Source: Synechococcus sp. PCC 7336
GTDB taxonomy: Bacteria > Cyanobacteriota > Cyanobacteriia > Thermostichales > PCC-7336
DNA: 64,000 bases
Assembly (NCBI RefSeq): GCF_000332275.1
Contig: NZ_CM001776.1
Location: forward strand, 2,686,789 to 2,750,788
Reading direction: 5' to 3'
The notes under the pieces are model-generated. The model was not told the origin of the DNA, made no database searches, and worked only from the letters and a program-made list of their open reading frames with translations. A program made the translations under genes and the position numbers. This document shows positions 12,277 through 56,262 of the stretch, one piece after another (position 1 is the stretch's first letter; every line of letters begins with the position of its first letter).

Positions 12277-12288
12277 TGGGGATTTTTG

Positions 12289-13389
12289 ATGAGCTCAACC
12301 CGCCAAGATTTTGATAACCCTTGGAAAGATATTATGGAGGTCTATTTTAAGGAGTGCTTGGCCTTCTTCTTTCCCAAGATCTACGCCGAGATTGACTGGA
12401 GCCGAGGTTACGAATTTCTGAATACCGAACTCCAGCAAATCGCCCGCGACGCAGAAGTGGGAAAGCGCTGGGCCGATAAGCTCGCCAAAGTATGGCGCAA
12501 AGATGGCAGCGAAGTCTGTGTCATCATTCACGCAGAAGTGCAAGGTCAGCCCGAGAGCATTTTTGAAGCACGCATGTTTACCTACTACTATCGCCTGCGG
12601 GACAAATTCCAAGTCCCCATTGTTAGTCTGGCCATCTTGAGTGACGAGCGAGCCAGTTGGCGGCCCAATCAATTTGAGACCGGTCTGTGGGACTGTGAGT
12701 TGAGCTTTCGGTTTCCCACGGTGAAGCTGTTAGACTACGAGCAACGCTGGGAAGAGCTGGAAGCCAGCCAGAATCCCTTCGCTACGGTCGTGATGGCGCA
12801 TCTGAAGACCCAGGCGACGCGGGGTCAGCCAACGGAGCGCAAGGGGTGGAAATGGCGTTTGACGCGGCGGCTGTACGAGCGAGGTTACGAGCGTCAGGCG
12901 ATCGTCAATCTGTATCGCTTCATCGATTGGGTGATGCAGTTGCCCGAGGAATTGGAGCTAGAATTTCGGACAGAGTTAGATCGATGGGAGCAGGAGAATC
13001 GTATGCCTTATCTCAGCACGATTGAGCGCATGGCGCGTCAGGAAGGTCTGGAACAGGGGCGCGAAGAAGGACGCGAACAAGGACGCGAACAAGGACGCGA
13101 ACAAGGTCTGGAACAAGGACTCGAACGAGGTCTGGAACAAGGACTCGAACGAGGTCTGGAACAAGGACTCGAACGAGGTCTGGAACAAGGACTCGAACGA
13201 GGTCTGGAACAGGGAGAACGAGCACTGATTTTGCGCCAGCTCGCGCGGCGATTCGGGGAGATTCCTACGCAGCGCCAAGTTCGCATAGAAGGACTGGCAC
13301 TACCTCAATTGGAAGAGCTGGGTGAAGTGCTATTGGATTTTCAGAGTGGGGACGATCTCGATATTTGGTTGGATGCATGCGATGTGTGA
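12289..13389 (+). CDS. Rpn-type PD-(D/E)XK nuclease/transposase-like protein with repeat tail
   Basis: 366 residues. The N-terminal ~200 residues resemble the Rpn/YhgA family (PD-(D/E)XK fold): WKDIMEVYFKECLAFFFPKIY, DKLAKVWRKDG, then IIHAEVQGQPESIFEARMFTYYYRL carrying the E-x-Q core, and LAILSDERASWRP. Family members promote recA-independent recombination in E. coli and are often called transposases; cyanobacterial copies are numerous and undefined. Residues about 245-310 are a Gln/Glu/Arg/Gly repeat region, probably a charged helix, made from 12-base and 24-base tandem repeats. The C-terminal block (LILRQLARRFGEIPTQRQVRIEGLALPQLEELGEVLLDF, split by eye) fits the DUF4351-like end seen in these proteins. 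Confidence 0.8.
   Translation: MSSTRQDFDNPWKDIMEVYFKECLAFFFPKIYAEIDWSRGYEFLNTELQQIARDAEVGKRWADKLAKVWRKDGSEVCVIIHAEVQGQPESIFEARMFTYYYRLRDKFQVPIVSLAILSDERASWRPNQFETGLWDCELSFRFPTVKLLDYEQRWEELEASQNPFATVVMAHLKTQATRGQPTERKGWKWRLTRRLYERGYERQAIVNLYRFIDWVMQLPEELELEFRTELDRWEQENRMPYLSTIERMARQEGLEQGREEGREQGREQGREQGLEQGLERGLEQGLERGLEQGLERGLEQGLERGLEQGERALILRQLARRFGEIPTQRQVRIEGLALPQLEELGEVLLDFQSGDDLDIWLDACDV
13069..13200 (+). repeat. In-frame 12-bp and 24-bp tandem repeats
   Basis: Three perfect copies of GGACGCGAACAA (13069-13104) are followed by four perfect copies of a 24-base unit starting GGTCTGGAACAA (13105-13200), with a partial fifth. Both units preserve the frame of the Rpn-type gene and encode REQG and LEQGLERG repeats. 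Perfect identity suggests recent expansion and possible copy-number variation. Confidence 0.95.
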
Positions 13390-53431: not shown

Positions 53432-53462
53432 CTGGCATCTCGCTCGAACTGCGAGATGCCAG
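53432..53462 (+). terminator. Strong hairpin after sigma gene
   Basis: CTGGCATCTCGC and GCGAGATGCCAG form a perfect 12-base-pair stem with a 7-base loop 22 bases after the sigma stop. No T-run follows, but stem strength and position suggest a terminator, possibly shared with the convergent Cys-repeat gene. Confidence 0.65.
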
Positions 53463-53519: not shown

Positions 53520-53957
53520 TTAAGAGGCACAAGGGTTAGACGCGCAAGGATTGGCGCAGGGGTTGGCAGCGCAGCGGGAATTGAGGGGGAAGCTACTGCA
53601 AAGTTGGTCTAAAACAACCCCAGATTTAATCACAGGGGCAGGAGCAGCCGCTGTTGCACAGGGGTTGGCACAGGGGTTGGCGCAAGGGTTAGAGGCACAG
53701 GGGTTAGCACAGGGACTGGCGCAAGGAGAGGCACAGGGCTTAGAGGCACAGGGGCTGGCGCAGGGAGAAGCACAAGGATTGGCCCAGCAGGGATTTGCGC
53801 AAGGGGAGGCACAGGGGCTAGCACAGGGCTTAGAGGCACAGGGGCCAGCATGAGCGGCAGTGGAACTAGCTCCTTGAAATCCACTGGGGGCTACAGCGAT
53901 CGCGGCAAAGCTGAGCAGAGAGGCGATACCAAACAAAGTCAGGTGACGAATTTTCAC
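53520..53957 (-). CDS. Secreted Cys-rich repeat protein (CA-S/N-PC repeats)
   Basis: 145 residues from GTG at 53957, with AAGGA about eight bases upstream; an upstream extension to 54077 has no support. Signal peptide: VKIRHLTLFGIASLLSFAAI followed by a cut near AHA-GPC. The mature ~107 residues contain about 20 cysteines, most in the repeated unit PCAS, PCAN or KPCAS (15 in the first block), then a short linker (APVIKSGVVLDQLCSSFPL) and a second block of three NPC units. There are almost no charged residues. No named family is recognised; exported NPC-repeat proteins of unknown role occur in other bacteria. A metal-binding or disulfide-polymer role is possible but unproven. Confidence 0.72.
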   Translation of the reverse strand: MKIRHLTLFGIASLLSFAAIAVAPSGFQGASSTAAHAGPCASKPCASPCASPCANPCWANPCASPCASPCASKPCASPCASPCANPCASNPCANPCANPCATAAAPAPVIKSGVVLDQLCSSFPLNSRCAANPCANPCASNPCAS

Positions 53958-54479
53958 GGTTGGATTCCTTTTGGGTTGCGAAGTGTTTAATTGATGACTT
54001 TCTAAAATCGTGACAACGTCCGAGGTCGAGCAGTCATCATTAAGATTGGACCTGGGACAAAACGAATCTAGAATCAATCGCGGTGTCTCTATCTAAAATG
54101 GATGTCCTTCCCGATCTAGGTCTTAAGAGAAAATGAAGATATTCCAAGCAAAACATTATTATTTATAGAGTTCGCAGTAGAGTTTGTCGGTCGTGGAACT
54201 CGACAACTTAGATCTATGCAGCTCGAGGTGCTAACTGCCGGTACCGCTTGCAATGCCCAAGTTCCTAGGCGGCGAGAGCAGTTCGGCGTCGTAGAGTTCA
54301 GGTGATGTCAAGCTAGATCGACTTGAATTTGCTCCTAGCCGAACTGACGCAAAGTTAGCATTTTGTGAAGTCGATCGAATGCCCTGAGAAAACCCTCTAA
54401 ACTGGCAAAGCAAGCTCAGTCTGCAAGGCTGAGGTGTCTATCCTCTCTACATTTACTGCCGTTGTGCGGCTCGATTGAT
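53958..54479. other. Divergent spacer with long imperfect hairpin
   Basis: 522 bases without a gene. An extended inverted repeat is visible: CAGTTCGGC at 54279-54287 and GCCGAACTG at 54338-54346 enclose a smaller stem (TCAAG/CTTGA near 54307-54325). It could be part of a structured leader or small RNA. Promoters for both flanking genes must lie here. Confidence 0.35.
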
Positions 54480-54959
54480 ATGACTGCCAGCCTTAGCTCC
54501 AATGAAGTCCAGGGATTAGAATATCTCGTTTTAGGCGTTGCTACCTGCTTCAAACGCAACGAAGAAGGACGCCTGGAAGAAATTCTCGTGGCAGAACCCT
54601 TGCCTGCTGCCGAGTTGGATTGCCTTTACAGCGCTGCTCGCACATCTTCCTACCAACTGCTCTACGCCACCACATACGCCGAGTTAGTGCAAGACGGCAC
54701 CCCTGTCTTGCCCGCCGACATCGTTCCTGCAGGTACTATCCCCGCTAACGCATTTGTGGAGCGAGCCCAGGCGGCTGTCCGCTCCTATCGCTCTAAATCC
54801 GATTTCAAGCATCTGCCCATCGGCGAAACGGCAACCCCCGACTCGCAGCCCTTTGCTCTCAACTACAATCCCGAACCCAAACGCATTCTCGATGTTGTCT
54901 ACGAACCGAGCGATGCAGATAACGTCAAGCAACATTCACACACTCATGCCCGCTTGTAG
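54480..54959 (+). CDS. Conserved cyanobacterial hypothetical protein
   Basis: 159 residues from ATG at 54480 (MTASLSSNEVQGLEYLVLGV). I recall similar proteins in many cyanobacteria, with the shared features EVQGLEYLVLGVATCF, TSYQLLYATT and the ending DNVKQHSHTHARL, but no function is known. It is soluble and acidic, with no signal. Its stop is 18 bases from the convergent KH gene. Confidence 0.75.
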   Translation: MTASLSSNEVQGLEYLVLGVATCFKRNEEGRLEEILVAEPLPAAELDCLYSAARTSSYQLLYATTYAELVQDGTPVLPADIVPAGTIPANAFVERAQAAVRSYRSKSDFKHLPIGETATPDSQPFALNYNPEPKRILDVVYEPSDADNVKQHSHTHARL

Positions 54960-55306: not shown

Positions 55307-56008
55307 CTAGGCGGTAGCAGCCACTTCTTCAGTCGTTTCTGTGTCGGCGGCTTCTTCTGCGTCCGGTTCCGTCTCAGCGGTTTCTTCGGCATCGGCAACA
55401 GTAGCTTCTACACTGTCAGCCTCAGCCTCAGCTTCAGACGTTTCAACGGTCTCTGCCTCTGTTGCAGGAGCTTCTTCTGCGACGGACTCCTCTACCGTTA
55501 CGGATTCTTCTGCCGCTACGGGTTCCTCTGCCGATACGGACTCTTCTACCTTTTCTGCTGTGTCCGCTGCCATCTCAGCAGTTTCTTCGGCATCGGCAAC
55601 TGGGGCTTCTACACTGTCAGCCTCAGCTTCGGACGTTCCAACAGTCTCTGCCTCTGCTGCAGGGGCGGGCTCTGCTACCGTTACGGGCTCCTCTGCCACG
55701 ACAGACTCTTCTACCTTCTCAGAGGAAGCAATGGTGATGGGCTCGCTGGAAATTTCGACACCAGATTTCACCATTTCGTAAATGCGAGCTTTTTTGAATA
55801 AAGAATCTAAGGTGTCGCTGGGTTGAGCGCCTCGGCGCAGCCATTTAGCAATTTCTGCCACTTTGAGGATAGTTTCTTTGGTACGGGGATTGTAGTAGCC
55901 CAACTCTTCGATGGGACGACCCTGACGGCGAGCGCGACTGTCGATAGCCACAATCCGATAGCTGGCTTCCCGCTTTTTACCGAAGCGCTTCAACCGCAGT
56001 TTCACCAT
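55307..56008 (-). CDS. rpsP: Ribosomal protein bS16 with long acidic extension
   Basis: 233 residues from ATG at 56008, with AAGGAG eight bases upstream. The first ~79 residues are a normal bS16 ([59 protein letters not shown]). The following ~154 residues are a Glu/Ala/Val/Thr-rich acidic tail containing two related ~65-residue copies (each with [10 protein letters not shown]-type and VADAEETAE segments). Typical bS16 is about 80-110 residues. The tail would reach far from the small-subunit body. It lies upstream of khpA. Confidence 0.93.
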
Positions 56009-56262
56009 GTCTTCGAGACTCCTTTGCCTATTCAAATAAAGTTTTCTGTGCTGGAAAGTTTTGCCGTGCTGGACTGACAATCGTCAGTTACCCCACTCGG
56101 GCTACAACCGGAACATTTGAGAGTAGCACTTTAGCATACCTTAGTGGCGATCGCGATCGCTAGGTTTTGTCTCAAAAGCCTGGTGCCCGAGGGCTCTATC
56201 CATCGGCCAGCAACTCCTCTAAGGCCCCGAGTATGATAGAGGAGCGAGACTAGAGGTTGGTT

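Follow-up and report, generated by a model that had tools for sequence, protein, structure and literature searches.

A cysteine-repeat protein of Synechococcus sp. PCC 7336 with a signal-peptide-like leader, a candidate poly-thiol metal buffer related in pattern to NPCA repeats of several phyla

The closest described systems are the bufferins (Buf1/DUF2282, Buf2) and Buf_EGKCG/oxazolins, small, Cys-rich, Sec-exported proteins, some in lipoprotein forms, which are associated with sigma/NrsF genes and occur also as Buf1-cytochrome c-FGE fusions (PMC12452194). In Caulobacter, a SigF/NrsF regulon with a DUF2282 gene is induced by copper (PMC8224329). A second point of reference is the SoxA family, which combines a Cys-ligated haem with Cys-S-thiosulfonate chemistry (PMC4423706). 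Here we compare these systems with a Cys-repeat protein encoded in a 64,000-nucleotide stretch of the Synechococcus sp. PCC 7336 genome, the whole of which we refer to as the window.

The gene lies on the minus strand (53520-53957) and encodes 145 residues from a GTG start at 53957 to the stop at 53520, with an AAGGAA Shine-Dalgarno sequence (53965-53970, minus strand) 7 nt 5' of the GTG. The coordinates proposed in the earlier note are exact, and its count of about 20 cysteines agrees with the 20 found on the minus strand. They fall between residues 40 and 143 at gaps of 4 or 5, except at the linker (20 and 9), amounting to 20 of the 107 residues beyond residue 38. The signal-peptide-like leader VKIRHLTLFGIASLLSFAAIAVAPSGFQGASSTAAHA (53847-53957), common to three paralogues, would be cleaved after AHA; signal peptides were judged by eye throughout this work. 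The division into two repeat blocks separated by a linker, also claimed previously, is borne out: block 1 (53655-53843) contains 15 cysteines in CAS(K)P and CANP units, block 2 (53523-53567), NPCANPCASNPCAS, contains three, and the linker (53568-53654) contributes the remaining two. The repeat had been described as without charge, which is nearly correct, except that block 1 bears two lysines (K43 and K73); the linker carries K111, D117, and R128. Downstream of the stop codon, a 12-pair stem-loop with a T run (53432-53462, minus strand) is the likely terminator between two convergent genes. The AlphaFold model of the protein shows no fold (mean pLDDT 45). We obtained no match to Pfam (up to E = 1), NCBIfam, or the PDB by sequence, in keeping with the earlier statement that no family name was known. 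The window protein had no match in the two sampled genomes of the same order, and, used as the query in the scan of named genomes, it retrieved no relative.

Two features had escaped the earlier note, namely a set of four paralogues and membership in a class that crosses phyla. The host genome, 5.07 Mb in one contig, contains four Cys-repeat genes including the window gene, all with the leader in common. Two of the paralogues form a tandem pair, of which the first (C1:3040623-3041048) has 26 cysteines in 25 units and the second (C1:3041169-3041804) joins a short repeat to a domain of 122 residues; the third (C1:2801197-2801466) has 15 cysteines and a lipoprotein-type leader (GVASC). The neighbours of the window gene, a sigma factor gene, an ORF without a family match and, further off, a gene for ribosomal protein S16, are not informative. 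The adjoining ORF (54471-54959, plus strand) encodes 162 residues with no match in Pfam or NCBIfam, and the S16 domain (55307-56011, minus strand) continues into an acidic repeat tail of about 150 residues rich in Glu, Ala, and Val. Two cysteine-dioxygenase-like cupins are encoded in genome G000, neither of them beside its Cys-repeat genes, and a search of the same genome for an orthologue of the thioredoxin-NPCA fusions described below returned only generic thioredoxins.

The linker contains the motif LCSSFPLNSRC (53571-53603), which recurs among exported-looking cyanobacterial proteins. LCxxFPLNSRC is present in two other exported-looking proteins of the host genome, and a looser LCxxFPxNSRC-type pattern occurs in 40 of 386 genomes of the phylum, compared with four matches of the reversed control. 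Proteins bearing it are mostly exported-looking with Pro/Thr/Ser tails, and one is Rieske-like (L011, L012, L216-L235). The two cysteines of the motif probably pair with each other.

The window protein resembles bufferins and oxazolins in being small and Cys-rich; its leader looks by eye like a Sec signal peptide, and one of its paralogues has a lipoprotein-type leader. It differs in having no DUF2282 match and in a much denser, strictly periodic arrangement of cysteines. The bufferin-modifying enzyme MNIO (PF05114) has no representative in the host genome, and of 11 further cyanobacteria with NPCA repeats that were tested, 10 likewise gave no match, with positive controls. Since MNIO and the DUF2282 profile are both missing, we rejected the identification of the window protein as a bufferin. 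Metallothioneins of the SmtA type are likewise small, Cys-rich, and plausible metal sponges, but they are cytosolic, whereas the window protein carries an apparent export signal; it has no Pfam match, and its units hold single cysteines instead of CxC or CxxC clusters.

Repeats of the same kind are widespread. The scan of named genomes found at least 118 NPCA stretches, many of them in Pseudomonadota, Rokubacteria, Nitrospinota, and Mariprofundaceae. The neighbourhoods described here form a non-random sample drawn from the matches listed in that scan, with neighbouring ORFs called mechanically. Among the 77 NPCA proteins in the matches listed, 30 contain a SoxA/TsdA cytochrome c domain, six a cytochrome P460 domain, three a thioredoxin domain, and three a YHS domain, while the remainder mostly have no domain. 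In Pseudomonadota, Rokubacteria, and others, the repeats flank the SoxA/TsdA-type cytochrome c or P460 domains or stand alone. We define the class by a leader followed by at least three [NS]PC[AS] units, and this architecture is found in the window protein. The association with an envelope redox or metal domain is seen in the tandem paralogue, which fuses the repeat to a cupredoxin-like domain, and not in the window gene itself. NPC-NPC spacing in the matches listed is 6 residues in 480 cases, 5 in 158, and 4 in eight; a spacing of 5 or 6 is thus a common and not a defining trait, and the window protein has mainly 4 and some 5. The NPCAxK proteins of Pseudomonadota, Rokubacteria, Nitrospinota, and cyanobacteria share with it a leader and an NPC(A) repeat, alone or beside exported redox domains, but the host genome differs in its compact 4-residue CASP/CANP units and its cupredoxin-like fusion. 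The repeat had no match in Pfam, NCBIfam, or the PDB, and a literature search for NPCAAK-like motifs retrieved no paper. By its repeat pattern, the window protein appears to belong to a widespread, apparently undescribed class, for which, the pattern being of low complexity, common ancestry and convergence are both possible.

Like bufferins, members of the class are fused with cytochrome c domains or accompanied by FGE-sulfatase and ECF sigma/NrsF genes (PMC12452194). Among the matches listed, ECF sigma factor genes occur at seven proteobacterial loci and zinc-finger anti-sigma genes at four, together with one NrsF match and FGE-sulfatase genes. The commonest neighbour, at 20 of 80 named loci among the matches listed, encodes DUF6969 (e.g., L160:840-1607, minus strand, and L130:1745-2485, plus strand; Pseudomonadota), on which a literature search found no paper. 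Further recurrent neighbours among the matches listed are Usp, ECF sigma factors, FGE-sulfatase, multihaem cytochromes, DUF3179, DUF302, and rhodanese.

As for cyanobacteria, the earlier note had suggested a search for NPC-repeat proteins and a look at their neighbours. A DNA pattern for NPCAxKNPCA matched 16 of the 386 sampled genomes of the phylum, and the reversed-pattern control matched none. In these proteins, the NPCAxK repeats stand before thioredoxin (WCxxCKN) or YHS domains. We read four loci at length, where one or more have as neighbours genes for a CcdA/DsbD-type protein, for thioredoxin reductase, for DUF4079, or for two-component systems. Close to the NPCA gene, a cysteine-dioxygenase-like cupin is encoded at all five cyanobacterial loci read, these four together with genome G118 (L048:8173-8820, L049:10943-11557, L050:2674-3327, L051:6558-7175, and L205:6926-7540). 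At the first of these loci, an ArsS-type radical SAM gene (L048:6219-7211, minus strand) is located directly 3' of the YHS-NPCA gene, and an ArsP-type permease is encoded nearby (L048:1901-2935, minus strand). In another family of the phylum (f32, at L030 and L046), exported-looking proteins carry CQKPC/CEKPC repeats and, after them, a helical domain with Cys that appears Spy/CpxP-like by eye.

The additional domain of the tandem paralogue probably has a cupredoxin fold. All structural matches listed for the model of its family (pLDDT 58) are of this fold, the best being EfeO (Z 7.4) and nitrosocyanin (Z 6.1); because the Z values stay below 8, we regard the assignment as probable but not certain. 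Homologues are encoded separately, no more than three genes away from an NPCA gene, at six of the 80 named loci among the matches listed (Pseudomonadota and related MAGs), and in the cyanobacterium G118 such a gene adjoins an NPCA lipoprotein gene and a cupin gene. Fusion in one case and adjacency in others provide good evidence that the repeat and the cupredoxin-like domain work together. The family has three invariant cysteines and no invariant histidine, and the domain of the paralogue contains no histidine at all. The family therefore lacks a classical type 1 copper site, for which two histidines and a cysteine would be needed as ligands.

For the function, the earlier note had suggested copper or zinc binding or a disulfide-linked extracellular material. 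Four points are either shown or well supported here: how the gene is read, the set of four paralogues, the modular fusions, and the neighbours that recur. We propose that the window protein is an exported array of reduced thiols serving as a buffer for soft metals, most likely Cu(I), a reading to which we give a little less than an even chance. The product would be a Sec-exported, intrinsically disordered protein whose approximately 20 evenly spaced cysteines, kept apart by small neutral residues and proline, could serve as a ligand array for soft metals outside the cytoplasm. Reduced thiols might gather Cu(I), the likeliest ion, into thiolate clusters along the chain, and the protein might then buffer the metal or hand it over within the envelope. 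A modular NPCA element, which elsewhere is fused to domains of the thioredoxin, YHS, cupredoxin-like, or c-type cytochrome kind, would here occur on its own. The leader and repeat conserved in four paralogues, of which one is of the lipoprotein type and one is the cupredoxin-like fusion, agree with this proposal, as do the cupredoxin-like genes near NPCA genes elsewhere and the sigma/NrsF and FGE genes at NPCA loci, as found in bufferin systems (PMC12452194). That the thiols are kept reduced fits the YHS and thioredoxin fusions and the nearby CcdA/DsbD-type protein and thioredoxin reductase in other cyanobacteria. On the other side, the recurrent NPCA neighbours listed include no recognised copper-resistance family, the cupredoxin-like family has no conserved histidine, the immediate surroundings of the window gene are uninformative, and the cysteines may be paired as disulfides if the envelope is oxidising. 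If the arrays bind Cu(I), they would be an unmodified counterpart of bufferins. Dense periodic Cys arrays, apparently outside the cytoplasm, occur in several phyla, joined to redox domains of five or more kinds, and we found neither a family model nor a paper for them; four paralogues of one simple protein in one cyanobacterium offer a tractable system for tests.

A function as sulfur carrier or thiol-redox relay, in which the Cys array bears persulfide or thiosulfonate or shuttles disulfides outside the cytoplasm, is a tentative alternative that we consider unlikely. The array would correspond to the single-Cys arm of SoxY with many sites in place of one, and SoxA/TsdA-type haem, thioredoxin, and CcdA partners would load or discharge it. 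The frequency of SoxA/TsdA domains among the listed NPCA proteins speaks for it. With a profile of the SoxA-like domain as query, the top PDB match is SoxA (1h31, a dihaem cytochrome c, E 5e-9). The Cys of the C[ML]xxPM motif, invariant in all 31 sequences that fit this pattern, lines up with a SoxA cysteine, and the SoxA family is known for its Cys-S-thiosulfonate chemistry (PMC4423706); a PDB search with the sequence of one cytochrome-fused relative gave no match, so that the domain profile alone succeeded. YeeE-type transporter and rhodanese genes adjoin some Thalassospira NPCA genes, and CcdA, thioredoxin, and the cysteine-dioxygenase-like cupin adjoin cyanobacterial ones. However, the window protein and the paralogues in its genome have no haem or thioredoxin domain, and fusions to P460 and YHS are not specific to sulfur. 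The likeness to SoxY is a functional analogy only, an exported Cys that might act as an arm for carrying sulfur: Pfam gives no SoxY match for the window protein, which has many cysteines in repeats without a GGCGG-type arm, and no Sox genes lie nearby. In a more specific form, NPCA arrays would be many-site sulfur-carrier arms of the envelope, loaded by Cys-ligated SoxA/TsdA-type cytochromes and reset by thioredoxin/CcdA, with the window protein as a free-standing reservoir; we find this doubtful. Sulfur-carrying arrays would constitute a new kind of carrier.

A disulfide-linked extracellular or envelope material, in which cross-linked repeats would form an insoluble coat, is improbable in our estimate and less likely than a metal buffer or a sulfur carrier. 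The low complexity, the Pro/Ala/Ser/Asn spacers, and the apparent export would suit a coat, as would the range of 5 to 25 units among the paralogues, but the genome has only four such genes, lipoprotein forms exist, and relatives are fused to soluble redox domains and associated with the reducing factors CcdA and thioredoxin. Altogether, the thioredoxin, YHS, cupredoxin-like, SoxA/TsdA, P460, and CcdA partners favour envelope thiol chemistry involving metal, haem, or sulfur over a plain structural material, and the soft-metal buffer is the reading that we prefer.

All of these functions presuppose that the minus strand is translated, as the earlier note had proposed in treating the open plus strand as a by-product. 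A test of the strand was needed because many cyanobacterial Cys-repeat ORFs shadow EQGLEQG-tailed genes on the opposite strand. The plus-strand GLAQG-repeat frame (53551-53853) is open for 100 residues, and the share of synonymous codon differences inside the repeat, 84% in the Cys frame against 81% in the antisense GLAQ frame, cannot settle the strand. Serine is written by both AGY and TCN codons at equivalent repeat positions, which favours the Cys frame, as the opposite reading would exchange the dissimilar Leu and Glu. Across the four paralogue leaders, 59 of 111 differences fall at third codon positions, and 42% of the differing codons still specify the same residue when read in the Cys frame, compared with 22% at best in any other frame. 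The 12-pair hairpin after the stop is long and well placed between the Cys gene and the convergent sigma-factor gene; shuffled sequence is expected to contain 1.1 such terminator-like sites. In one paralogue, the repeat continues in frame into a conserved domain, again in favour of the Cys frame. From these features of the sequence, we conclude that the Cys reading is the real one and the GLAQG frame an overprint. An artefactual Cys reading, with the plus-strand frame or no frame as the real gene, is highly improbable despite the two open frames, their similar repeat synonymy, and the existence of such false ORFs, given the Shine-Dalgarno sequence, the convergent terminator, the leader conserved in four paralogues, the in-frame fusion, and the same architecture in many phyla.

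Several Cys-repeat ORFs retrieved by tblastn from this and other genomes are indeed antisense overprints, and we discarded most matches to 'CSSPCSSPC' frames as the antisense of GLEQGLEQG-type repeats. The window itself holds an example, an ORF at 12286-13389 (plus strand) with a long EQGLERGLEQG tail, whose antisense at 13038-13286 (minus strand) reads as a false 'SPCSRPC' Cys-repeat protein and serves as a warning for similar findings.
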